Assembly: GCA_030606335.1 (NCBI GenBank)
Contig: JAUWGP010000010.1
Coordinates: forward strand, 1-64,000
Origin: Caldifarciminota bacterium
Lineage (GTDB): Bacteria > Hydrothermota > UBA3073
Direction of reading: 5' to 3'
DNA: 64,000 nucleotides
Part shown: one piece after another, positions 4,058-63,540 of the stretch
Layout: the number at the start of each line of letters is the position of its first letter
Position numbering within the stretch: the first letter of the stretch is position 1
The notes under the pieces: model-generated
Told to the model about the DNA's origin: nothing
Databases searched by the model: none
The model's input: the letters and a program-made list of their open reading frames with translations, nothing else
Position numbers and translations under genes: made by a program

Positions 4058-4130
4058 AACCACACCCCGCCTTTGGCGGGGCAGGGAGAGCACTTTTCGC
4101 AAAGCGAAGGGTGAGAAAGCCTTTGTGGTT
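4058..4130. repeat. 73-bp inverted-repeat element AACCACA...TGTGGTT with internal CCCCGCCTTTGGCGGGG hairpin
   Basis: Ends AACCACA/TGTGGTT are inverted; internal palindromes ccccgcctttggcgggg and cttttcgcaaagcgaag; first 30 nt identical to 21371-21400. Confidence 0.75.
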
Positions 4131-6600: not shown

Positions 6601-9600
6601 CTATCTAATGATGACTAACTTTTTTGTGTTGGTAAATCCCTCAGAATATAATTTTACAAAATAGATTCCAGGAACAAGTTTATTTCCTTTGTCATCCCTT
6701 CCATCCCATAACACAGATTGCACAGATTTACCTGACTGCCTGCTGGTAATGCAAGGATTACACAGATTAAAGGTACGTATGAGACGACCAACAAGGTCGT
6801 AGATTTTTAAAGTAATCGGTTTGTGGTTTTTACCGATAACGGATAACTGATAACTGATAACCGTCTTTTCTTTGAATGGGTTTGGATAGTTCTGGTATAG
6901 AGCGAATATTTCAGGTGATGAACATGTCTCCTCTATTCCAAATTCCAGATCACTTAATACCTTCTGGGCAAGCAGTGCAGCATCATCTTCTTTCATAAAG
7001 TATAATGGAAAACCAAAGAATACAATATTGTATGAACCACTTAGGTTTCTTATGGCACAGGGTTTATCCTGAAAGGATGTATCACCTGAGGCAGAGTTAA
7101 AGGAATAAATAGGTTCTGAATTATAGGGTGTAAATATATCTATGTATTTCATCTTACCATCCCAGGAAGAAGGGATTTTTGAAAAATCAACGGATATATT
7201 GGGGTAACCAAGAAATCCATCTGCAGAAGAGAAGTCGTTCGATGTAGATTCGTTTGCATTCGAAAGTTTTAAATAATCGTATGGGAAATCGCCTTCACTG
7301 AATGTGAACGGATAGAACCCATACCCCATAATCGACATAATTGGCTTCCACCCACAAAGCCATAACCTACCTCCTACGCTAAGATAATCCTTAATATCAG
7401 GAATTACCGAGGAAATTTGTATGGATGCATAATCATCTCCATGCCATATTATAGGAGAATAGAGACCAAGATCATATATGGATGGCTTACCAAGTGAATC
7501 TACATCCCATTCCGTAAAATCATACCCCGATAGTATAGTCCTATAAAAGTTATCAACTTGTGCATCATTGGGACTCCCTGGTGCGCCTGTTCCATTTCTC
7601 GTTTCATCGACCACAAGTATTCCCTGGTCAAGAGATATGGGACATGCAGATATCTCAAGGGAGTAATTACTTTCTAAGTCCTGTGTATCAACTGCGGTTA
7701 CAACATAATAATACCAGGCACCTTCAAGAGATGTATCACTATAAGTTGTACTCAAAATGAGAGATGTATTCAATCTCTCGTATGGTCCTCCAGATACATC
7801 TCCACGATAGATATTATATCCTGCAATATCAGCTTCATAATTTACCGTCCAAAAGAGGTCTATTTCCATATATCCAGGAGATGCTGTAAGGTCTTTTGGT
7901 GGAGAGGGGGGACCTTCGAGGCTACCCGGGAAAGTTACAAAGGGATTACCTATAAAGCAGAAGTCCCATACAAAGAAGTTAGGCGCAATATCATCGCCGA
8001 ACCATATCCTCACCCAGGTCGTATCATAGTTGTAGCACATATAGTCAAAGTATGCCTCTCCAAGGGATTTTCCATATGTAAGGGAGTTAAAGAAAGTCTC
8101 CTGTGCATTTCCTGTTCCTATACTCCTCACTACACCAAGTGAGGCAAGTCCCGAGGATTCACCCATACAGTAATTGATAGCAAGATTATGAGATGGATGG
8201 TCTTCAAAGTTTGCACCATGACACGCCCACAGGAGATAAAACCAGGAGCCTGGTTGAATATCCTTAATGTTGTGCCAGTAAACCCATGGAGATATGTCGA
8301 AACAGTGAACGTCACTTCCTGAATGGCACCAGATATGGGTAATCTCTGAACCATATGTAGAGAGATAGTCGAGATACTCATCTCCACTTACCCTCCATTC
8401 ATCACCGCCTATTGTATCAACTGCATCACCATACATATGGGATAGATTTATGTATAATGGCTTTGCTGCACCTCTCCAATCATAATTGATACACTCAAAC
8501 GCTTGCATGGGTACATGGAGGTTGAGTTCGTAATATGAGTGGCATTTTTGAAGAAAATCAGAAAGGGCAATGGGATTGTCCTGAGGTGGTCTCATCCAGA
8601 AAACCCAGATCTCTGGTTCTAAATTTTCTCCCCATTCATGGTAATCATAATATCCATTACCTTCACTATCTATAAACTCACCATCCAGGTCTTCGTAGAA
8701 GTAGGGAATAGGGAATGGTGGTTCACTCCATACAGGTTCCCACATTGCGTAAGGTATAAGTCCAGTAAGTATTGCCCCTGTAATGCTGTCGTTATTATAT
8801 AGGTTCTGCAGGTATATTCGAATGGATTCAGGTGTGACATCAGGAGATATGATATATGTATGAATTTCAGCATCGAAATTTGATTCAACATCAGTTTTAT
8901 ACTGCATAAGATCTGATTCAATATTATCATAAACATCCTCGTCAACTAACATTGCTACCTTCTGATGGACCTGCTCAGGTGGCATATTTATATAATAAGA
9001 AAACCATGTCCAGTAATCACCGTAACCCACTCCAATCCAGTATTCATAGACATAGAAAAATGAATCAGGAAGAGAGTAAGAGAAACTCACACTCGTATCT
9101 ATAATAGGACATGAAATTTCTATATCCTGTGAGGTTATAAATTCGAAATTCCAGTTGCCTTCTGTAGTCCTTCGGTAGATTATTATCCCAATTTCATCTT
9201 CTCCAGGTGGAACTTGTGCTGTAAAATGAATGGATACTGTTATATTTTCTCCGATAGAACTATAGGATGGGTAATCGAACCAGACTATATTGGGATAATC
9301 CTGTCTCTTTCCTGTATGGAGAATTCTCCAGGCATCGTTTCTTGTGATTAGTTGATATGAAAGTCCAGATTCTATAAGAAGAGAAATTTTTTCTCCTCTT
9401 AAAAAGGCAAGTCCACTTTGCTTATCCATCCATTCCAATCCTATTTCAAGGTTATCAAGGAGATTAACATCCTTTTCTTCAAAAAAGACCATTACAGGTT
9501 GCCCTTCCCCCCATTTCCATTGAGGGGGTGGTTCTTTTTGTCCACTAAAGGCTATAGATGAGATAAAGAGGAATGATATGATGGGCATAAACCTTTGCAG

Positions 9601-9687: not shown

Positions 9688-9795
9688 AGATTGCTTCGTC
9701 GTCCGTTAAGAAGAGCTACGGACTCCTCGCAATGACCGAAATGAGTGTGTCATTGCGAGTCCCACAGAAATGGGGGACGTGGCAATCTCATCTTT
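9688..9795. repeat. Dispersed palindromic 'CATTGCGAG' repeat
   Basis: agattgcttcgtcgtccgttaagaagagctacggactcctcgcaatgac...gtcattgcgagtccc...ggcaatctca; same family at 58551-58694 and 63312-63540. Confidence 0.8.
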
Positions 9796-12407: not shown

Positions 12408-12574
12408 AACTACCTCCTTTTATGGCTCCCTTTCTACCTGTAACCTATCCGTCAGTGGACGGAATAGACAGGATAGGGATAACCTGTTTGCATAACTTTA
12501 AAATAACAACTGTCTATTATTTTGATGCATCACCCCCTTTCATTTAAACGCAGATTTCACGCTACTAATTGCAA

Positions 12575-13072
12575 GCCACTGATTTCACGGATTATACAGA
12601 TTCGCATTCATTAATCAGTGTAATTTGAGGCTCAATACACAATACGTTTCCATTCCAGACTACTTTTACCAAAATTAAGTAAAAGGCCTACCTGTAACTT
12701 AGTAGCTTTAAGATAGTTAATCATTTGAGCATCATCATTCTCGGTTAATCCATGTGTTTCTTTTAATTCGACAAGAACTTTGTCATCCATGATAAAATCA
12801 GGTTTATATTTTTTATTGAGTTTTTTCCCTTGATAGTAAATATCGAGTTCAACCTGGTTTTTAAATATAATACCAGCTTTTTGTAGTTCTATAATCATAG
12901 CCTCTTCATATGCGGCTTCAAAAAATCCTGGACCCAATTCTTTATGTATTGTCATTGCAATACCAATGATTTTATAAGTTAGTTCCTCATAAAGAAACTC
13001 TTCTTTTATTCGTTTCATTAATTTTTGATTGTATTAATTTAATAAGTCAATTCAATCTGTGTAATCTGTGGC
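12575..13072. mobile_element. Putative inverted-repeat element carrying a GxxExxY gene
   Basis: Outer ends GCCACtGATTtcACggATTatACAGATT (12575) and ...CAATCTGTGTAATCTGTGGC (13072) are imperfect inverted repeats flanking the 12632-13018 ORF; absent from the paralogous module 2. Confidence 0.5.
12632..13018 (-). CDS. GxxExxY protein (PD-(D/E)XK nuclease superfamily-like)
   Basis: 128 aa; 'GPGFFEAAYEEA' matches GxxExxY; 'KPDFIMDDKVLVELK' matches PD-x-ExK; 'QMINYLKATKLQVGLLLNFG' typical C-terminus. Confidence 0.9.
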   Translation of the reverse strand: MKRIKEEFLYEELTYKIIGIAMTIHKELGPGFFEAAYEEAMIIELQKAGIIFKNQVELDIYYQGKKLNKKYKPDFIMDDKVLVELKETHGLTENDDAQMINYLKATKLQVGLLLNFGKSSLEWKRIVY

Positions 13073-14033: not shown

Positions 14034-14190
14034 AGGACGCAGATGAACGCAGATTATCAAGATTATTTAATACTTTTTTTCTTTGATTATTAAAATTCTT
14101 TCTTTTAATTTTCAGCTGAGATTCAAAATTAAGCAGAAGACCTACATCAATGTCTGTTGCTCTTAAAATTTTTAAATATAAATTCTCTAT
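14034..14190 (-). pseudogene. C-terminal remnant of a GxxExxY gene
   Basis: Minus-strand frame reads ...RIENLYLKILRATDIDVGLLLNFESQLKIKRKNFNNQRKKVLNNLDNLRSSAS*, matching MINYLKATKLQVGLLLNFGKSSLEWKR of the intact gene at 12632-13018; no N-terminal half present. Confidence 0.72.
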
Positions 14191-14217
14191 CCTGCTTTTC
14201 TGCGTGAATCTGCGTCC
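14035..14217. repeat. GGACGCAGAT...ATCTGCGTCC inverted-repeat element containing a degenerate GxxExxY 3' end
   Basis: Ends ggacgcagatgaacgcagattatcaagatt and ctgcgtgaatctgcgtcc; related shorter copies at 53774-53940 and about 19010-19137. Confidence 0.75.
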
Positions 14218-21370: not shown

Positions 21371-21462
21371 AACCACACCCCGCCTTTGGCGGGGCAGGGA
21401 TGTAACAGATTTTTTTTGTATTCTCTATACTTTCTCTGTCCCGCCAAAGGCGGGATGTGGTT
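21371..21462. repeat. 92-bp inverted-repeat element, 23-bp ends with one mismatch
   Basis: AACCACACCCCGCCTTTGGCGGG (21371) versus reverse complement of CCCGCCAAAGGCGGGATGTGGTT (ends 21462) differ at one position. Confidence 0.82.
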
Positions 21463-34162: not shown

Positions 34163-34227
34163 GCCACAGATTGCACAGATTTCCACAGATTAAAGTATTT
34201 TTTAAAAAAATCAGTGAAATCCGTGGC
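34163..34227. repeat. 65-bp miniature inverted-repeat element GCCACAGATT...AATCCGTGGC
   Basis: gccacagattgcacagatttccacagattaaag...aatcagtgaaatccgtggc; ends inverted; resembles the ends of the GxxExxY element at 12575-13072; overlaps the 3' end of the 34211-36436 CDS. Confidence 0.7.
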
Positions 34228-38241: not shown

Positions 38242-38521
38242 AACCACAGATTCACCCTGTTAAATAGATACAAAATTGAGTACGAGTAATTATCTCTGGT
38301 ACTTTATTTAACAGGGAAGCCACAGAGAGATAAAATTTATTTTTCTCTGTGTACTCAAATTCTCTATCAGCGTTTTTCTTGCTTGTAGCTCACCTCTGGT
38401 AAACTTTAGGTTCAATAGAAGAGAGCACAGAGGTTTTCTATTTTTTTCTTAATTTTCTACCTCAAAGATACTCCCTGCCCCGCACCTATTCATAGGTGCG
38501 GGGTGAATGTCCTCTGTGGTT
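38242..38521. repeat. 280-bp AACCACAGA...TCTGTGGTT bounded composite repeat element
   Basis: aaccacaga at 38242 and tctgtggtt ending 38521; contains the 62-bp MITE-like repeat and hairpin CCCCGCACCTATtcATAGGTGCGGGG at 38479-38504. Confidence 0.65.
38255..38316. repeat. 62-bp MITE-like repeat CCCTGTTAAATA...TATTTAACAGGG (copy 2)
   Basis: Terminal inverted repeats; related copies at 55-116 and 53868-53928. Confidence 0.8.
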
Positions 38522-40991: not shown

Positions 40992-43900
40992 TTATCTTAG
41001 TAAAATTATTTTCTTTGTAAATGTTTTCTCCCCATTTACTAATCTGCATAGATAAATACCGCACGGCAGTTTCATACCTTCTTCATCCCTGCCATCCCAG
41101 GTCACAGATTTCACAGATTTATCCAACTGCATATCGATAATAGAGGGATTACACAGATTAAAGGTGCGGGAAAGGCGACCGGCAAGGTCGTAGATAGACA
41201 AGGTAATCGGTAATTGGTAACCGGTAATCGGTTTGTGGTTCTTACTGATAACCGATAACTGATAACTGATAACCGTTTTCTCTCTGAAAGGATTTGGATA
41301 TATCCTGAATATATCTCTCGTATCCTCTACATATTCCTCTACTTTAGTATATTCTTCAAGGTCTATGAGCATTCTTGCAACCAGTCCCGACCATATATAC
41401 TGGTGGTGATGTCCTGCAGAGTAGTAATCAGGACAATAAAGTTCCCAGAAATAGTGATTATTCTTAAGTTGATATATAACATTATCAAAGACCTTTTGGG
41501 CGAGGTTCTCTGCTTCTTCAAGATATCCATAGTCGAGAAGCCCTCTGAATATGAGATAATTCCACTCTACCCATATAGGACCATTCCAGTATCCCATTGG
41601 ATTATAATAAGGATCTAAGGCTGATAAAGATGGGATACCGTAATTACGCCAGAATTTATCAGGGTCTATAAGGTGTCCAAGTAAGTAATCTGCCTGCTCT
41701 TGAGTGGCTATACCAGCCCAGAGGGGTAGAAACCCAATTATCTCCTGGTGCTTCAGGTCATTTGAACTAAAATAAGTAAAATCGTGGTCATCCTTATCAA
41801 CATGATAATAAAATTTGGTCTCAGCATCCCACATATATTGATTAATAAAGTTAATCCTATCATTTGCTTCTATAGTCCAGTATTGATAATTAGCACTATC
41901 ACCTAACTCCAGTGCCATATTGGCTAATGATTTTGCTTCTTTAACCAATAGACAATTCAAGTCAAGACATTCAAAGTTACTGGGCCATCCTACCTGGTCC
42001 CAGATAACCACTGCTCCGTCTCTTACACACTCAAGTACTGCATGTCCACCCCATTCACAAAGTCCGTCGTTATCATCATCTCTTTCTATTATCCAGAAAT
42101 TATAGAACTCAACACCTGAATTATATGCCTCCCTTAAGAATGTCGTATCTTGACTCACAATATATGTCTCCCAATTCTCCCAGGAAAACCATGGAGCTGA
42201 AGAGGTATAACTATTATTATACCAAATTGTTTCATTAAGGTATGGCCCCACTCTATAGGGTATATAACCATCTGGCCATACAGGATTACTGTTCTGCCTT
42301 TCCATATATACCCTTTGTGAGTTCATAGCACCCAGGGGGTTCATAAATACATAGGCTAACATTGAAAGACTTTCATGGAATACCTGACCTCCATGACCCC
42401 ATCCCCAGGTAGGTTCCCTTGAGAAAAGATAGTAATTATATGAACAGTATCCTTCAGGAGGTAATATCAACTGATGTATAAGGGAAAAGGCACTCCAGTA
42501 AATAAGTTCCAAATCAAGAGAGGAGAACTCATAACAAGGAATAGGGGAATATCTCTCCTCATTCTCAACAATATATGGTTCAAGAGGTATATTACATAAG
42601 GAACGGACCAAGGAGAGAAGACCTGATACCCCTTCATCATAGGCTGTAACACCTCGTATTAATCTGAAAGAGACTGAATCAACAGAGTGTATTTCATACT
42701 CCTTCTCGAGTGCAAGAACCCTTATATCACCAGAGGAAATGTGATTTGATAAAGTACCCTCCATAATATTACCAAAAAACTCTGTAGAATCTACAGATAT
42801 AGCACCCACTTGAGTAGAGTGCCCACCCCTCAGGTCTCCATTACAGGCTATAAGTGTATAAACCCAATCTGTTGAACCCTGCAGGAGTGTATCCAGATAA
42901 TAAAATGTCTGTATATCGGAAGCAAGGATGTCAAACCTTCCATCCTCTTCCTCCTGTCTTCTGTATATATCATAGGATAATCCATCGATGTAATCCCAGG
43001 ATAACAACCAGCTTGTGGTGTCATTCAGGGGTACTGCCCTGACTCCTGTAGGTGGAGCAAGGTAAATATCTGGTGATAGTACCATATCCACCCTTACACC
43101 ATCAGGGTCAGGAAGTTCGGTTATCATACCTTTCCCAATTCCTTCCTCCTCTGTTTCCAGACAACTGAAATATACGATAAATGAATCACCAACCATAGGG
43201 GGAGGATTGTCAAAATTACCAAGCTCACAACCCTGATATCCATTTCCAGGTATATTCGGGTAAGGGTCTCCCCATTTTGGAGCATCTTCTGTAAGTATCT
43301 GTCCGATGTTATCATTTAGATACACAACCTGGTTTGCTAAAGGTGGAAGGTGTTGGCAGGGAGTGCTATCCGAATGCTCAACAGTACCCCACTCAACACA
43401 ATAATTTGCCATCTTTAGCCCGGGACTACCCAGATAATTATACCCCCCGAAAGAGGTTGGTTCAGTATCCATAATATACACGTCAATGAGACGGTCCTCA
43501 TAGGGAATGTTGTGAGACAGTGTCCATCCATCAGGGTGTTCATAGTGAGTAAAACTGAACCCATCATCAACAAATGCTGCCTCTAAAACACCCTCTCCAC
43601 CATATTCAAAGAATGGATATAGCTCGATAACAATAGTGCTATCTCTATCATTTATTATACATATGTCATTCAAGACTATCTTCGAACTATAACAGAGAAA
43701 GGTCTCTCGTATCCTTATGTCATCGTATGGTTCGAATTCAAATATAACCATGTTTGCATAGGACTTCCTCACTCTCACATCCTGTGTCATATCACTCAGC
43801 GTAAAGCGAATATCACCTCCAAGCCTGAATGCAATATAAAGATCTCCTCCTGTATCAGTTTGAAAGCCAATCCCCTTATCATCGTCATGCCATATAAGAG

Positions 43901-46003: not shown

Positions 46004-47848
46004 TTACCTTACCAGAACGACCTTCCTTGTTGATACTGCCTTGGGACCTGTAAGCTGACAGAAATAGATCCCCTGGGGTACAACTTCATAGTCGTTATCC
46101 ATACCATTCCATGTTGCAGTGTGGGTTCCAGCAAATTTCGGTCCCTCCCATAGTGTTTTTACAAGTCTGCCCGTAATATCAAATATCCTTAAGGATACCA
46201 TTGATTCTCTTGGAATCTCATATGATATATTTATTATCTCACCTGGATTGGGTGTGATATTTGATATATGATAGTAGGAAGGCAGGTTGATTTCGTCCTC
46301 AACACCCACCTGACCTTTAACAACAGCACGGATAAAGAAGTCAGTACAATATCCAGTGCCCCACCATCCACCACCTGTCCAGCGTATGAAACTCCTCTCA
46401 TATGTTCTATTAACATCCTGTCCAAAGTGTGGCTGTCCATCTGTAATGAACTCGTATGTTACGTAGAATGGCTCATCTGTTACAAATAACTCTGGTACAA
46501 TGGTCTCGAGCCACCCAGTTCCCATAACTGGAATAAGAATTGGTGTAATAATATCGTTTTCCTCATCCGGGTAACCTGTAGCAGTGTCTACAAGATTTAT
46601 ATGCAATTTAAGTGTGTCTATACCTGGCGGATTTACAAGAGAATCTATATAGACAAGACAGGTAGCAAGTGTGCATTCAGATGCAGGCACAAGCATTGCA
46701 GCGAGTTTCTCGCCTATTGCCCCAAATGCACCTCTACTGCTCATCATCATACCATCGTCAGAGGCGAGGAGAGTGTCTGGAAGTACCTGGATTCCATAAT
46801 AGGTGGAGTCACCTGCTTGTGAAGGATCTGTAACAACCTCTCCGGAGTCATCCACTGCTTCTATATAGTATTTTATGGATGTTCCCACAGGTTGGTTGGG
46901 AATGAGACCCTCGTAGTAATCATCACCAGTGGGAACCATATCATCCGTCAACCAACCCGCTCCGAGATCATAATATAATGTAGCTGATGCTACTACAGAC
47001 TCGTCTGTAATTTTTGCACTTATTGTGCAGGGTTCGATGGTATTATAAGTATTACCATGAGGTGCGTGAGAAATAATGGGGGGAAGGGGGAAGACTATTG
47101 GAATATCTGAGATTCTCAACTCATCTATGAATCCATCAAACCAGGAGTCGTTTCCACCACCACCAAAACCTATATTCACAGGCTGGTCAGAAACATATGG
47201 GGGTTCATCATCGACTGGGTCAAGTTCCTTTGTGCCAAGGTACAGGAGGGAATCAAACTCGTCGTGAATGAACATAATTGCACGGTGTGGCGTTGTCATG
47301 GTATCATATTCAAAGGCTACATGATACCATTTTCCAAGTTCGAATATATCATTTGGAGATATTATCTCAAACCAGTGCCACGGACGTATGAAATAACCCA
47401 GGACGAATGCATTATCATTGCGAATAAGAATATAATAATTTGGACAATACCAGGCATACATGGTATCAGGTTTTGCAATTATCCTCGGGTCTGTTTGCCA
47501 GCTCTCACCCTTTGTTTGAATGTTGAACCAAGCCTCTATGGTAAATGGACTGTATAAATCAAGGGCACCCGTATCCGGGTCATCAGCTATAAGTATCCTG
47601 CTTGAATCTGTTGGAGCATCATTATCAAGATATAGGCACATATTAAGCCAGTCAAGTCCCGGAATGAAAGCAGCATTCCCATGCAGTTCTCCGTCCGGGT
47701 TTAGTCCAGATGCATCCTCAAGGTTGCTATCAAAGTGCATAAGTAGCCTTGTATGTTCATCTGATTCATATGGTCCTCCAATTCTTGCCAGAACAAGTAG
47801 TGGAGCAATAAGAAGACCTATTGTTAGTATGATATATCCCCTTTTCAT
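46004..47848 (-). CDS. Exported LamG/concanavalin-like domain protein with T9SS-type C-terminal domain (tandem copy A)
   Basis: 614 aa; signal peptide; 'LLMHFDSNLEDASG...FTIEAWFNI...FDGFIDELRIS'; CTD 'ITPNPGEIINISYEIP...GIYFCQLTGPKAVSTRKVVLVR'. Confidence 0.87.
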   Translation of the reverse strand: MKRGYIILTIGLLIAPLLVLARIGGPYESDEHTRLLMHFDSNLEDASGLNPDGELHGNAAFIPGLDWLNMCLYLDNDAPTDSSRILIADDPDTGALDLYSPFTIEAWFNIQTKGESWQTDPRIIAKPDTMYAWYCPNYYILIRNDNAFVLGYFIRPWHWFEIISPNDIFELGKWYHVAFEYDTMTTPHRAIMFIHDEFDSLLYLGTKELDPVDDEPPYVSDQPVNIGFGGGGNDSWFDGFIDELRISDIPIVFPLPPIISHAPHGNTYNTIEPCTISAKITDESVVASATLYYDLGAGWLTDDMVPTGDDYYEGLIPNQPVGTSIKYYIEAVDDSGEVVTDPSQAGDSTYYGIQVLPDTLLASDDGMMMSSRGAFGAIGEKLAAMLVPASECTLATCLVYIDSLVNPPGIDTLKLHINLVDTATGYPDEENDIITPILIPVMGTGWLETIVPELFVTDEPFYVTYEFITDGQPHFGQDVNRTYERSFIRWTGGGWWGTGYCTDFFIRAVVKGQVGVEDEINLPSYYHISNITPNPGEIINISYEIPRESMVSLRIFDITGRLVKTLWEGPKFAGTHTATWNGMDNDYEVVPQGIYFCQLTGPKAVSTRKVVLVR

Positions 47849-47917: not shown

Positions 47918-49762
47918 TTATCTCACAAGGACGACCTTCCTTGTGGAGACTGCTTTAGGACCTGTAAGCTGACAGAAGTAGATACCCTGGGGAGCTATCT
48001 TACCAGTTTTGTCCATCCCATTCCATGTTGTAATGTAGTTTCCTGCAAACTTAGGACCATCCCACAATGTCTTCACGAGTCTGCCCGTAATATCAAATAT
48101 CCTCAAGGCTACCATTGACTCTCTTGGAATATCATAGGATATGGTTACTATCTTACCTGGATTAGGAGAGATATTTGATATATGGTAATAGGAAGGAAGG
48201 TTGATTTCGTCCTCAATACCCACCTGACCCTTAACAACAGCACGGATAAAGAAGTCAGTACAATATCTTGGTCCCCACCATCCACCACCAGTCCAGCGTA
48301 TGAAACTTCTCTCATATGTTCTATTAACATCCTGTCCGAAGTGTGGCTGTCCATCTGTAATGAACTCGTATGTTACGTAGAATGGCTCATCTGTTACAAA
48401 TAACTCTGGTACAATTGTCTCAAGCCAACCAGTAGACATAACTGGAATAAGAATTGGGGTAATGATATCGTTCTCCTCATCCGGGTAACCAGTAGTAGTG
48501 TCTACAGGATTTATATGCAATTTAAGTGTGTCTATACCTGGCGGATTGACAAGAGAATCTATATAGGCAAGACAGGTAACAAGTGTGCATTCGGATTCAG
48601 GTACAAGCATCGTTGCAAGTTTCTCATTTATTGTCCCAAATGCACCTCTACTACTCATCATCATACCATCGTCAGAGGCGAGGAGGGATTCTGGAAGCAC
48701 CTGAATTCCGCAGTAGCTGGAGTCTCCGGCTCCTCCAGGATATGTTACAACCTCTCCAGAATCATCTACTGCCTCGATGTAGTATTTTATACTTGTTCCT
48801 GTAGCCTGATTGGGTATAAGACCATCATAGTAATCATCACCAGTGGGAACCATATCATCCGTTACCCAGCTTGCTCCAATGTCATAATATAATGTGGTTG
48901 ATGTCACTACAGATTCGTCCGTGATTTTTGCACTTATTGTACAAGGGTCTGTGGTGTTATAGGTATTACCATATGGAGTATGAGCTATTACAGGTGGAAG
49001 GGGAAATGTCCTCGCAATATTAGAGATTCTCAGCTCGTCTATGAATCCGTCAAGCCAGGAGTCATTTCCACCACCACCAAAACCAATATTCACTGGTTGA
49101 TCAGAAACATATGGGGGTTCATCATCGACTGGGTCAAGTTCCCATACACCCATATAGAGGAGAGAATCGAACTCATTATGGACGAACATAATTGCAGTGT
49201 GTGGTGTTGTTACAGTATCATATACAAAGCCGAAGTGATACCAGTTTCCAAGTTCAAATATTTCAGAAGGAGACCTCATGTCAACCCAATGCCATGGACG
49301 AACAAAATACCCTATGCTAAATTCATTTCCTCCAGTGACCTGTATCCAGTAGTTTGGGCAGTACCAGGCATACAGAGTATCAGGTTTTGCTATTACCCTT
49401 GGGTCTGTTTGCCAGCTCTCACCCTTTGTAAGTATATTGAACCACGCCTCTATGGTGAATGTGCTATACAAATCCAAAGCACCAGTATCCGGGTCATCCG
49501 CTATGAGCACTCTGCTTGAATCTGTTGGAGCATCATTATCAAGATATAGGCACATATTAAGCCAGTCAAGTCCCGGAATGAAAGCAGCATTCCCATGCAG
49601 CTCCCCGTCCGGGTTTAGTCCAGATGCATCCTCAAGGTTGCTATCAAAGTGTAGAAGCAGCCTTGTATGCTCATCTGATTCATATGGTCCTCCAATCCTT
49701 CCCAGAACAAGCAGTGGAACGATGAGAAGACCTACTATCAGCATGATATATTCCCTCTTCAT
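47918..49762 (-). CDS. Exported LamG/concanavalin-like domain protein with T9SS-type C-terminal domain (tandem copy B)
   Basis: 614 aa, same length and highly similar to copy A. Confidence 0.87.
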   Translation of the reverse strand: MKREYIMLIVGLLIVPLLVLGRIGGPYESDEHTRLLLHFDSNLEDASGLNPDGELHGNAAFIPGLDWLNMCLYLDNDAPTDSSRVLIADDPDTGALDLYSTFTIEAWFNILTKGESWQTDPRVIAKPDTLYAWYCPNYWIQVTGGNEFSIGYFVRPWHWVDMRSPSEIFELGNWYHFGFVYDTVTTPHTAIMFVHNEFDSLLYMGVWELDPVDDEPPYVSDQPVNIGFGGGGNDSWLDGFIDELRISNIARTFPLPPVIAHTPYGNTYNTTDPCTISAKITDESVVTSTTLYYDIGASWVTDDMVPTGDDYYDGLIPNQATGTSIKYYIEAVDDSGEVVTYPGGAGDSSYCGIQVLPESLLASDDGMMMSSRGAFGTINEKLATMLVPESECTLVTCLAYIDSLVNPPGIDTLKLHINPVDTTTGYPDEENDIITPILIPVMSTGWLETIVPELFVTDEPFYVTYEFITDGQPHFGQDVNRTYERSFIRWTGGGWWGPRYCTDFFIRAVVKGQVGIEDEINLPSYYHISNISPNPGKIVTISYDIPRESMVALRIFDITGRLVKTLWDGPKFAGNYITTWNGMDKTGKIAPQGIYFCQLTGPKAVSTRKVVLVR

Positions 49763-49931: not shown

Positions 49932-52814
49932 TCATCTCCCTAATTTAACTATCTTTTCTTTAAACCTCTCACCACCAATTTTTAGATGGATGAAATATAC
50001 ACCCTGCGGGAGTGCTTGTCCATTAAAGGATAGTGTATGACTCCCCTTTTTTAATCTATCCTCTAAGATGGTCTCCACCCTTCTACCCATAACATCATAC
50101 ACACTAAGGGAGACATCTGATTCTCGAGCAATAGAGAACGATATATTTGTTGCTACAATAAATGGATTTGGAATACATCTGTAAAGTTGGTTTGATATGC
50201 GAACAGTCTCCTCCTCAATACCTAATTCACCAAGGTCCTCTAAAACCTTTGAGACCAATATCTGTGTAGCATTTGTGAAGTATAGGGGAAAGCCGAAGAA
50301 GATTGCCTTATAGTCATCATTTATGCACCTGAGAGCACAGGGTCTTCCCTGATATTCACTCTCTTGATTCAATGATTGGAATGAGTATACAGCATCTTCT
50401 CCAGAAAAAACATCTATATACATCATTCCATCCCATGAAGAAGGTATCTTAGATGTATCTATATCTATATCAGGATAACCAGAAAGACCACTGGCACCTA
50501 TAAACTCATATGAAAATGATTCATATGCTGTATCGCATCCGAGATAATCGAAGAGAAAATCTCCATCTCCAAATGTGAATGGATATGTTCCACTACCCAC
50601 AATATCAAGCACTGGTCTCCATCCGATAAACCATAATTTACCTCCTGCATCAAGGTATCGTGTGAGGGATGGAACAAAATTTGATGCGAGTGGTTGTACA
50701 TAATGGTCAGCATACCAAACAATCAGGGAATATCTCCCTATGGTTGAAATTTCTGGAGTACCCTGTGAGTCAACATCCCACTCATCAAAATCCAAATTTA
50801 TCTCTGAAAATAGGTCTCTATAGAACTCATCAACCATATTATCTGTCGGATTCCCAGGATTCCCAGGTCCGTCCCAGGTCTCGTCTACAAGAAGGATACC
50901 CTCATCAAACGACATAGGTAAGGCGGAATCAGGATTAGAATATTCACTCTCAAGTCCACCCGAATCCACAGCAGTTACAACATAGTAATACCATACTCCT
51001 GAATCAATGAGTGTATCGATTAATCCCGCTTCTGGAATAATAGAATCGTTTATCATTTCATAGGTGCCTGAAGCTCCCTCTTTCCTGTATACATTATATC
51101 CTATAAGATCGGTCTCCCAGTTATCTCTCCATCCAAGTTTAATACTCATATGGGATGGAAAAGCATCAACATCCTGTGGGGGTAGTGGGGGAGAGGCGTA
51201 AGGAGATGGGAATGTGACAAATGGGTTTCCTATGAATGCGAAATCCCACATAAAGCACTCGAGTGTATCTGATGGAAACCAGTATGATATTCTCTGTGGA
51301 TCACAGTGGTAGTTGAGGTAATCGAGATATGCCCTCCCGAGGTCCTTACCATATGCAAGAGAGTTGAATAAAATATCCTGCGTGCCGGTTCCCATACTCC
51401 TTGTTACACCAAAAGATGCCAGACCAGTAGCGTGTCCAAAGCAGTAGTTTATTGCAAGATTGTTTGAGGGAGACTCGTGGAAGTCTGCTCCATGACAGGC
51501 GAAGAGTGAGGTAAACCTTGAACCAGGGTAGGTATCCCTCAGCTCATTATAAAAAACCCAGTTTGGAGGTCTATCAAAATTATGGAAATAACTCGAGGAG
51601 TGAGCCCATATATTAGTGATCTCATACCCCCTTGTAAGATGGTCAAGGTATTCATAACCAGCAACATACCAGTTATTCCCTCCTACGGTATCTACCTCTT
51701 CTCCATAGATCTGAGCAATACTCTTCTTAATATATTTCATCGCCCCGAACCAATCATGATTTATACACGCAAATCCCCTCTGGGGGATAGATATTCCACC
51801 ATCATAATATTCATTACACTTTTGAAGGAACTCTAAAAGGGATGAAGGATTGTTCTGGGGTGGTCTCATCCAGCAGACCCATATATCTATTAACGGTTCA
51901 TCTCCAAACTCATGCCAGTCGTAAAATCCATCTCCATCTCTGTCTAAGAATATACCATCAAGGTCTTCATAAAAAAACGGTATTGGGCAGGTTTCTCCCC
52001 AAGGAAATTCCCACATTGCATAGGGGAAAAGCCCAACAAGAACTATACCAGCAATACCTGAATCAGAGGCAAGACTGTAAATATATGGTCTCATCTCTTC
52101 CGCAGTATCCCATGAGCCTTCGTAGATATGGAGGGTCACATCATAGTCTGTCTCCACATATGCCCTGTACTGTGTGATTTCATTCATTATTAAGGGTGCA
52201 ATAGAAGATTCTAATACAAGTGCTATGTCTTGGTGTGTTATTGGAGTTGGAACATTTATAAAATATTGTCGGCTATCTGTTCTTACCCATCCTCCAGGGC
52301 TCATATAGAGAACTCGTGCCTCATATACATATGCACCGTATTCAGAGGGAAGTTGATAATCAATATTGAATGTGAAAAAAGATGCACCAGAGACTGTGTC
52401 GTCTACATGTGTGACCCATTGCCATCCAGATGTTGTCTCTTTGTATATTGATACTCTTACCCTTGTTGAGTCATCGAACATATATGCCGTTGTAACGGAA
52501 ATCTCTGCAATACTTGACGGAGAACCATATGGAGGATATTCAATATCCCAGATGTAAAATGTATCTTTTTCCCTTTTATCTATCATCCTGTAGACAGTGG
52601 GGGATAGAATCTGAAACTGCAGTCCGCTCTCATAGAGCGTTTTCATATTATCAGGGACGAGCTGGCATATTGCACTACTTTTTGAAGAGCTCAGCACCTT
52701 TATACCCATACTCCTCAATACAGAGGCATCATATTCCTCAGAGAGAAAGACCAAGCCATAATTTCCATAAAGAAATAATGGAAGAAGAAGGATGTAAAGA
52801 AATGCTCTTTTCAT
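49932..52814 (-). CDS. C25 (gingipain/PorU-like) peptidase with FnIII, alpha/beta domain and T9SS-type C-terminal domain (module 2)
   Basis: 960 aa; 'TNIWAHSSSYFHNF', 'SLFACHGADFHESPSNNLAINYCFGHATGLASFGVTRSMGTG'; 'DLDGIFLDRDGDGFYDWHEFG'; CTD 'CIPNPFIVATNISFSIA...GVYFIHL'. Confidence 0.82.
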   Translation of the reverse strand: MKRAFLYILLLPLFLYGNYGLVFLSEEYDASVLRSMGIKVLSSSKSSAICQLVPDNMKTLYESGLQFQILSPTVYRMIDKREKDTFYIWDIEYPPYGSPSSIAEISVTTAYMFDDSTRVRVSIYKETTSGWQWVTHVDDTVSGASFFTFNIDYQLPSEYGAYVYEARVLYMSPGGWVRTDSRQYFINVPTPITHQDIALVLESSIAPLIMNEITQYRAYVETDYDVTLHIYEGSWDTAEEMRPYIYSLASDSGIAGIVLVGLFPYAMWEFPWGETCPIPFFYEDLDGIFLDRDGDGFYDWHEFGDEPLIDIWVCWMRPPQNNPSSLLEFLQKCNEYYDGGISIPQRGFACINHDWFGAMKYIKKSIAQIYGEEVDTVGGNNWYVAGYEYLDHLTRGYEITNIWAHSSSYFHNFDRPPNWVFYNELRDTYPGSRFTSLFACHGADFHESPSNNLAINYCFGHATGLASFGVTRSMGTGTQDILFNSLAYGKDLGRAYLDYLNYHCDPQRISYWFPSDTLECFMWDFAFIGNPFVTFPSPYASPPLPPQDVDAFPSHMSIKLGWRDNWETDLIGYNVYRKEGASGTYEMINDSIIPEAGLIDTLIDSGVWYYYVVTAVDSGGLESEYSNPDSALPMSFDEGILLVDETWDGPGNPGNPTDNMVDEFYRDLFSEINLDFDEWDVDSQGTPEISTIGRYSLIVWYADHYVQPLASNFVPSLTRYLDAGGKLWFIGWRPVLDIVGSGTYPFTFGDGDFLFDYLGCDTAYESFSYEFIGASGLSGYPDIDIDTSKIPSSWDGMMYIDVFSGEDAVYSFQSLNQESEYQGRPCALRCINDDYKAIFFGFPLYFTNATQILVSKVLEDLGELGIEEETVRISNQLYRCIPNPFIVATNISFSIARESDVSLSVYDVMGRRVETILEDRLKKGSHTLSFNGQALPQGVYFIHLKIGGERFKEKIVKLGR

Positions 52815-52822
52815 ATAACCTC

Positions 52823-53719
52823 CTAAAATGAAAAACCCATGGTCATCCTGTGGGAACCAGAGAGAACACCAAGGTTAGAGTATGCATAGTCGAGCTTAAC
52901 TATTGCCTCTCCAACTGGAATTGAAAATCCTGCACCGGATGACCAGGTCTCTACATCATATCCAAACTTATATCCTCCTCTTAGAGTAAAATATCTGTTA
53001 AGTTTGTATTCTAATCCCGTATTTATGACATCCTCATCATCAGTGGGCTTAATCATAACAGCAGCAAGTGTCAGAGAGGGTATTGGCTCAAATGCAGCAC
53101 CAAGAGAAAAATTCATTGGAAGTGAATAGAATTCATTTATAAATCTAAGATTGGGTCCAAAATTTGAGATTTTCATGCCAAATCTAAATCCTCTAATATC
53201 CGTTCTAAAGAGTGTTCCAAGGTCAAATGAAAAAGCACTTACATTATTTTGATAGAGTGAAAGTCCAATATACCTTGCAGTCAGCCCAATAGATGTATGG
53301 TCGGTTAAGAACCTACCATAACTTAACCCGAGTGCATAGTTGGAAGCATAGAATGTTTCACCAGTTCCATCGGGTTGTAGTGGTGTAGTAACCTCTATTG
53401 CATCCGTATACAGGCAGACAAAGGAAATAGCAAATGTGCCAATCCTTCGAAAAGGGGAAGCAATACTTGCAAACTCGTGATTTATACCAGCAAACCATCT
53501 TGTATGTGTTGCTGAAATGTCAATAGAACCTATTAAGGGAAGACAAGCTGGATTATAATAAACAGATGATGCGTCATCCACAACTGCAAGATATGCCTCT
53601 CCCATACCCACTGCCCTCGCACTTACACCTATCTTCAAAAATTGACCGGATGTGCTTCCAGGTCTTTCATACCCACCAAAAAGGAGAGCTGGAATTAGAA
53701 GTAAGATTAACTTTTTCAT
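52823..53719 (-). CDS. PorV/PorQ-family outer-membrane protein (module 2)
   Basis: 298 aa; 'ARAVGMGEAYLAVVDDASSVYYNPACLPLI'; paralogue of 13074-13979. Confidence 0.85.
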   Translation of the reverse strand: MKKLILLLIPALLFGGYERPGSTSGQFLKIGVSARAVGMGEAYLAVVDDASSVYYNPACLPLIGSIDISATHTRWFAGINHEFASIASPFRRIGTFAISFVCLYTDAIEVTTPLQPDGTGETFYASNYALGLSYGRFLTDHTSIGLTARYIGLSLYQNNVSAFSFDLGTLFRTDIRGFRFGMKISNFGPNLRFINEFYSLPMNFSLGAAFEPIPSLTLAAVMIKPTDDEDVINTGLEYKLNRYFTLRGGYKFGYDVETWSSGAGFSIPVGEAIVKLDYAYSNLGVLSGSHRMTMGFSF

Positions 53720-58550: not shown

Positions 58551-58694
58551 TCATTGCGAGTGTAATCTAAGCAATCCTTCACCGATAGTACGTCATTGCG
58601 AGCGACTAACAGGAGCGCGGCAATCTCATATTTTAATATCCCCTTAAATGCGATTGCTTCGTTGTCCGTCAACCGACGGACTCCTCGCAATGAC
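58551..58694. repeat. Dispersed palindromic 'CATTGCGAG' repeat
   Basis: tcattgcgagtgtaatctaagcaatcc...gtcattgcgagcgactaacaggagcgcggcaatctc...gattgcttcgttgtccgtcaaccgacggactcctcgcaatgac. Confidence 0.8.
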
Positions 58695-60211: not shown

Positions 60212-60481
60212 AACCACAGAGGTCACAGAGATTATATATTTTTTTCTCTGTATTCTCTTAAGCACTATGTTTTTCTAATTCATATAATAGAACAAAAGAT
60301 AATAATCCCTTTAATCTAATAGTGTCGCTACTTTTTAAGAGAATAACAAATTTATTAGAAGAATCCTGTTGAGAAGTTCTTAAATCTTTCACTCTCTTAT
60401 TTTGGAATAGCAGAGCACACAGAGAAACCAAAGAGTTCATATTTCTTTTTTACCTCCACGATCTCTGTGACCTCTGTGGTT
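60212..60481. repeat. 270-bp element with perfect 21-bp terminal inverted repeats
   Basis: AACCACAGAGGTCACAGAGAT at 60212-60232 and ATCTCTGTGACCTCTGTGGTT at 60461-60481. Confidence 0.88.
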
Positions 60482-63117: not shown

Positions 63118-63311
63118 AATAAAAAGTGTAAATGTATAAATTAATGTTTATATATATAAAATAAAATATCCAGTATTTATATAATATATTCGTTATATAT
63201 ATAATAGCATAAATTTTTCATTTTGTCAAGAAAAAAATAATTTTTTTAAAAAAAGTCAACGGATCAATCTTACATGTCTGATGTATATTTTGCTTTAAAG
63301 TAATAGAGAAA

Positions 63312-63540
63312 TGAGATTGCCACGCTCCCGTTGGTCACTCGCAATGACAGAAAATAGTATTGTCATTGCAATCCGCAGGCGAAGCAATCGCATTAAAGGA
63401 GGGATAGTTATAAAAAAATGAGATTGCTGCACTCACTTCGTTCGTTCGCAATGACAGGAGAATAAGGTTGTCATTGCGAGGAGTCCGTCGTTCGTCAAGA
63501 AGTACGACGGATATACGGACGACGAAGCAATCGCATTAAA
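63312..63540. repeat. Two tandem copies of the 'CATTGCGAG' repeat
   Basis: Both units run from 'aaatgagattgc' to 'gaagcaatcgcattaaa(g/a)gagggatagttat'. Confidence 0.8.

Follow-up and report, generated by a model that had tools for sequence, protein, structure and literature searches.

The GxxExxY gene of the stretch of DNA analyzed here (the window, 64,000 nucleotides from a Caldifarciminota bacterium) is the sole ORF (PDDEXK_3) of a small element with inverted array ends, and the conclusion that such elements form a mobile family is well supported. We consider it somewhat better than an even bet (probability, ∼0.57) that they are mobile elements of ∼450 to 650 bp in which a RecB/Cas4-like PD-(D/E)XK nuclease gene lies between inward-facing arrays of short units and which spread by cutting and copying at array sites. 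That GxxExxY itself performs the cut is an inference, as is the manner of copying.

The GxxExxY element of the window

The left end of the element (12575 to 12602, plus strand) is an inward array of three ∼9-bp units, GCCACTGATTTCACGGATTATACAGATT, which pairs with the right end (locus L002), the inward array AATCTGTGTAATCTGTGGC at 13054 to 13072 on the minus strand, an exact repeat genome-wide. Both arrays were read directly and confirm that the gene lies between imperfect inverted ends, as an earlier note on this DNA had described. The ORF (12632 to 13018, minus strand) encodes a PD-(D/E)XK nuclease of 128 aa with D74, E84, K86, and a QxxxY-type motif (Q98...Y102). Its stop codon is directly abutted by a degenerate inner array of the right-end type, AATCAGTGTAATTTGAGGC (12613 to 12631, minus strand, also read directly), which is absent from the earlier list of copies; together with the left end it forms a 57-bp hairpin resembling the gene-less copy at 34163 to 34227. 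With up to 2 mismatches allowed, the end word AATCTGTGNNATCTGTGG had 61 matches in the 2.43-Mb genome, versus 2 for a reversed control. The paralogous junction of module 2, which had been described as lacking the gene, is as tight as claimed, with one ORF ending at 52814 and the next starting at 52823.

Several further repeats were seen. Arrays of the CACAGATT type and GATAACTGATAACTGATAACC lie within the C-terminal part of two long minus-strand ORFs of the window (6677 to 6899 and 41068 to 41311), so array DNA can occupy coding sequence. Two adjacent 614-aa ORFs (46004 to 47848 and 47918 to 49762) are tandem duplicates with stretches 87 to 90% identical. Inverted repeats of the GTCATTGCGAG...GCAATC type make up a separate dispersed family (58592 to 58629, 63311 to 63348, 9697 to 9736, and 63470 to 63509), and a second small inverted repeat, CCCTGTTAAATA...TATTTAACAGGG, occurs at 38242 to 38521 and appears to be nested within end units of several elements (L004 and L006). 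Copies of ACTCTGTGTCCTCTGTGG were located ∼150 bp from contig ends in G000 (about base 150 of C42, C50, and C59, and near the ends of C1 and C5), which suggests that they are part of a longer repeat that broke the assembly.

The GxxExxY protein

The window ORF matched the GxxExxY profile TIGR04256 with 144 bits against a curated cutoff of 35 (E = 1.8e-42) and Pfam PDDEXK_3 (PF13366) at E = 4.9e-40. Profile score, the G..E..Y motif, and the PD-(D/E)XK residues all identify it as a GxxExxY protein with nuclease motifs, in agreement with its first annotation. D74, E84, K86, and Q98 were conserved across 59 GxxExxY sequences. The folds nearest to the predicted structure (pLDDT, 91.9) were Cas4 SSO0001 and lambda-type exonucleases, and there was weak profile similarity to Phage_endo_I/T7 endonuclease I, a junction-cutting enzyme. 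Within GxxExxY families, dN/dS was 0.04 to 0.29 (mostly 0.04 to 0.2), with one poorly estimated exception; these ratios indicate that the nuclease is kept under purifying selection. In several families the start of the protein is encoded by the array itself (e.g., MNADKQD from ATGAACGCAGATAAACAGGAT).

Proteins of ∼270 aa with a weaker GxxExxY match, several of them with two matching stretches, were found in genomes without arrays (L077 to L081 and G023:C32:21617-22351) and are possibly an ancestral nonmobile form. Carriage as phage or plasmid cargo was rejected, as there was one confirmed IMG/VR match, none in phages, and 8 distant plasmid records.

Inverted array ends across GxxExxY loci

There are 13 GxxExxY loci in the genome of the window and 19 in a same-genus genome. 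Reading the sequences of the 13 showed that nearly all lie between inverted runs of short units from at least six unrelated end families; the units are CACAGATTA for the window element, GACGCAGAT for L004, L006, L007, and L008, CACGAAGGA for L001, and AACAGGGATTTG for L010 and L011, among others. Ends were compared statistically in 83 loci from relatives and in 75 loci from GTDB, the latter including Planctomycetota, Acidobacteriota, Chloroflexota, Nitrospirota, Bacteroidota, Proteobacteria, Spirochaetes, Firmicutes, and Methanosarcinales. In the relatives, complementarity between 5′ and 3′ flanks had a median score of 21, versus 13 for flanks of different loci, and 60% of the 83 loci scored at least 20, versus 5.6% of mismatched flanks. 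The median in the GTDB set was 25, compared to 12 both for mismatched flanks and for flanks 640 to 900 bp away. The scores of the relatives apply to flanks measured from the profile core; flanks measured from the ORF ends gave a weak signal because the ORFs read into the arrays.

The common plan of the ends consists of inward-facing runs of 2 to 4 units of the form CRCNRAK, 7 to 11 bp apart. With this pattern, which was picked after inspection of the loci (the complementarity test is independent of such inspection), both ends bore inward-pointing chains in 49% of the loci of one set and 57% of those of the other, versus 0% of outer flanks, and upstream chains were on the plus strand in 59 to 70% versus the minus strand in 7 to 18%. 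By the strict pattern, about one-quarter of GxxExxY loci have no array. The crowding of intergenic regions with several kinds of repeats would suit a chromosomal gene with a host or defense role next to which unrelated repeats have gathered. We regard that explanation as very improbable, however, since the arrays face inward and are absent from the distant flanks (640 to 860 bp), copies occupy different loci in sister species, and a PADLOC search for defense systems gave no match for GxxExxY.

Opposite ends of different loci were shared in 62 to 93% of pairs above 60% protein identity, some of the closest pairs being orthologous copies, and in 0 to 2% of pairs below 40%. By this comparison the end type follows the GxxExxY protein clade. 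Because end sequences differ between clades, the window gene is not the partner of RCCAC repeats alone. The earlier proposal of a candidate autonomous partner for an RCCAC...GTGGY family thus stands as regards inverted-end mobile elements with gene-less derivatives and falls as regards specificity to such ends. Alignment of ends likewise showed that inverted ends are general, with strong ones in 60 to 73% of GxxExxY loci, and that the unit sequence varies by protein clade; GxxExxY loci elsewhere do not, as a rule, lack such ends.

Arrays and the gene occur together

Across 60 relatives, genomes with more GxxExxY genes also had more triple-unit arrays (Spearman, 0.85). At least 3 such arrays were present in 24 of the 25 genomes with GxxExxY versus 2 of the 35 without, so that repeat number and gene presence are associated as the earlier note had anticipated. 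Exceptions were G020 (∼50 triple arrays and no GxxExxY), G013 (20 arrays and a partial gene only), and G012 (a good GxxExxY gene and no arrays by the CRCNRAK-type pattern); G020 was the sole genome without any match that had many arrays.

Alternatively, a host HUH (Y1) transposase could mobilize the arrays in trans, as repeats of the REPIN/IS200 kind, with GxxExxY as a passenger. Y1_Tnp genes are common in these genomes, and the subfamily of L009, L131, and L133 resembles IS200/IS605 in that it has hairpins at both ends, a fixed target, and no target duplication, although hairpin ends without target duplication were found in the L131 subfamily only. Y1_Tnp was nevertheless a poor predictor of arrays: the array-rich genomes G007 (98 arrays) and G015 (91 arrays) lacked it, whereas 14 of 34 array-poor genomes had it, compared to 1 of 34 for GxxExxY. 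Moreover, the ends follow the GxxExxY clade, and the supposed passenger is under purifying selection. An HUH transposase as the driver is disfavored by the distribution of Y1_Tnp, and we judge this explanation unlikely.

Filled and empty sites

Comparison of filled and empty sites, proposed in the earlier note, gave clean cases for L131 and L133, and the target duplication hoped for was found at neither of these two sites. Both belong to a subfamily in which each end carries an extra hairpin (L009, L012, L013, L128, L131, and L133) and whose copies share the element alone and occupy different loci in two congeneric genomes. The empty site of L131 in the sister genome reads CCCCAAAAGGAGGTAAAAATGG without interruption, while the filled site reads CCCCAAA, the element, and AGGAGGTAAAAATGG; L133 provides a second clean empty site in a sister species. 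Neither site held an array before insertion, and both insertions are directly 5′ of a Shine-Dalgarno sequence. Most genomes compared are draft assemblies, and the clean empty sites come from this one subfamily with extra hairpin ends; among the orthologous sites of four gene-less copies of the window's CACAGATT family, none was fully clean.

The GxxExxY ORF of L012, L131, and L133 is broken at one common point by the palindrome ATCCGTTAGCTAACGGAT. Since these copies share the break yet differ in locus, an already broken copy has moved, presumably in trans. L013 shows a deletion between short direct repeats beside the same palindrome. The right end of all six subfamily members and of L113, GGTATAATGAACATTATACC, carries a TATAAT box, which could make it a mobile promoter; the AGGAGG of a codirectional gene follows this end directly.

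Gene-less copies

At the L012 site in the sister genome, the same element (L148) lacks 284 bp internally and keeps both ends, which we take as the birth of a miniature element by internal deletion. In the window, a gene-less element of the GGACGCAGAT type (14035 to 14217) contains a C-terminal GxxExxY relic (14035 to 14175, minus strand; 68% tblastn identity to aa 102 to 148 of L008) and is reduced at the orthologous site in the sister genome G001. A 65-bp gene-less element with window-type ends, GCCACAGATTGCACAGATT ... AATCCGTGGC (34163 to 34227), is identical in the sister genome. Another, at 60212 to 60481, has perfect 21-nt ends, AACCACAGAGGTCACAGAGAT, of the type that bounds L089, a GxxExxY element found intact in the sister genome.

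Five gene-less copies had been assigned ends of the same type as the window element. Of these, 34163 to 34227 is a true mini-element, whereas 60212 to 60481 has another unit type. The copy at 21371 to 21462 is a GC-rich palindrome that shares just the AACCACA start, and the arm at 4058 to 4090 points likewise for 4058 to 4130, neither being a unit array; when orthologous sites were compared, 38242 to 38521 was present only in the window's own genome. Derivation of gene-less copies from gene-bearing ones by internal deletion is supported by these sequences. The suggested resemblance to an autonomous/miniature family was upheld by the L148 deletion, the ORF relics, and the empty sites of L131 and L133.

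Sister species carry different elements at shared sites

The window junction in G001, from the same genus, holds a gene-less GACGCAGAT element and no GxxExxY ORF. At the window site, AACGCAGATTTCACG (12547 to 12562, plus strand) probably remains from the left end of an earlier element of this type and is common to the sister genome by alignment with G001:C74, and G002 has a further version with a GxxExxY relic. The L008 site holds a GACGCAGAT-GxxExxY element in the window's own genome, and in G001 it is occupied by an element of the window type that has decayed. The gene at the L007 site in G001 is decayed and in opposite orientation, element types are swapped between species at L029, and at L022 the left arm and right flank are retained around a different interior.

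Such same-site replacement suggests conversion between array-bearing sites by a homing-like break-and-copy process. The main alternative is that the elements spread by direct insertion only and that different elements meet at one site because tolerated intergenic sites are in short supply, which could produce the same picture. The array-free state of the L131 and L133 sites before insertion argues for it, as does a strong codirectional bias (see below) implying positional constraint. Against it, a left end of the sister type survives as a relic at the window site, and at L022 only the interior differs between outer parts that were retained. On balance, direct insertion alone appears doubtful.

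Orientation and level of action

Of 52 intact-gene elements of relatives, 36 have a codirectional gene starting downstream and 1 has a divergent gene starting upstream. A stricter version based on Shine-Dalgarno sequences gave 17 versus 0 in relatives and 9 versus 1 in GTDB loci. Selection for expression, rather than targeting, may account for this bias.

Codirectionality with neighboring genes would also fit an element acting at the RNA level, like the intervening sequences (IVS) of 23S rRNA, with ends forming an RNA stem that is removed or protected after transcription and with copying via RNA. IVS ends do form an RNase III stem (PMC4990558), and inverted-array ends of this kind are shared by the four-helix-bundle ORF family of the IVS type. 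Mismatches between arms, however, were as often of the wobble type as of the opposite type (157 versus 153 and 150 versus 151). With no G-U-compatible excess, what is maintained at the ends is probably a DNA site and not an RNA stem, and the RNA-stem reading was rejected on these counts. In addition, the elements had no match in Rfam, and the nuclease resembles DNA enzymes. We hold an RNA-level element to be decidedly unlikely.

Proposed mechanism and significance

In the mechanism that we favor, the nuclease would bind the array unit of its own clade at both ends and would cut or nick its own ends or another array-bearing site, whereupon host break repair would copy the element across. The main outcome would be homing-like conversion of one array site to another. 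More rarely, the element would insert at a new site, frequently one immediately 5′ of a ribosome-binding site, in the same orientation as the gene that follows. Gene-less copies would depend on mobilization in trans.

GxxExxY is widespread, reaches 19 copies per genome here, and is of unassigned function; a nuclease-only mobile element with array ends offers a concrete hypothesis. A related architecture surrounds four-helix-bundle ORFs (TIGR02436) outside rRNA in the window's own genome and its relatives (L044 to L048 and L245 to L273), e.g., with arrays GTAAATCGTGAATC, CAGACTACAGACCG, and AGTAACGAGTGACG. In 29 such loci the median inverted-end score was 21 versus 12, and the end units are ∼7 nt long with a sequence pattern unlike that of GxxExxY units. 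We tentatively propose, at slightly less than even odds, a transposase-free mobile class with inward arrays in many bacterial phyla and archaea, driven by GxxExxY or a four-helix-bundle protein (IVS/S23) and cut and copied in. If true, this would assign a role to two large families that lack a known one (GxxExxY and IVS/S23) and account for much of the dispersed repeat DNA of environmental genomes, as well as for the gene-less CACAGAG/CGCAGAT-type repeats of many uncultured genomes; the array-end architecture would link gene-less repeats to the IVS/S23 proteins, another long-standing puzzle.

Comparison with known systems

No description of an array-ended GxxExxY element was found in the literature searched, a scope outside which most subscription papers lie. 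The fold and motifs of GxxExxY are those of the RecB/Cas4/lambda-exonuclease clade, with weak profile matches to T7 endonuclease I; it differs from these enzymes as a stand-alone domain of 128 aa with a GxxExxY N-terminal motif.

The IVS of 23S rRNA, e.g., in Coxiella burnetii, carry an S23/four-helix-bundle ORF (TIGR02436) (PMC4990558). They likewise consist of a short ORF without known function between inverted ends and are regarded as selfish, and their TIGR02436 relatives in the genomes studied here have inverted short-unit arrays like those of GxxExxY. In contrast, IVS reside in 23S rRNA and are excised as RNA, whereas GxxExxY elements are intergenic among protein genes, have no RNA-stem signal, and encode a nuclease.

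With REPIN/RAYT and IS200/IS605 (PMC3116915, PMC8266576), the elements share the autonomous/nonautonomous relation, many intergenic gene-less copies, and the lack of target duplication (at the clean GxxExxY sites); they differ in having no HUH transposase and tandem-unit arrays instead of REP hairpins, and Y1_Tnp does not track with the arrays. Insertion sequences with MITEs (DDE transposase) are similar in their one ORF, inverted ends, and internally deleted miniatures, while GxxExxY elements have no transposase, their imperfect arrays vary between families, and target duplications were not observed. Homing endonuclease elements, including free-standing PD-(D/E)XK enzymes, resemble them in having the nuclease as the sole gene, targets related to their own ends, and same-site replacement. 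GxxExxY elements are set apart from these by many dispersed sites per genome, gene-less copies that outnumber the genes, and inverted ends.
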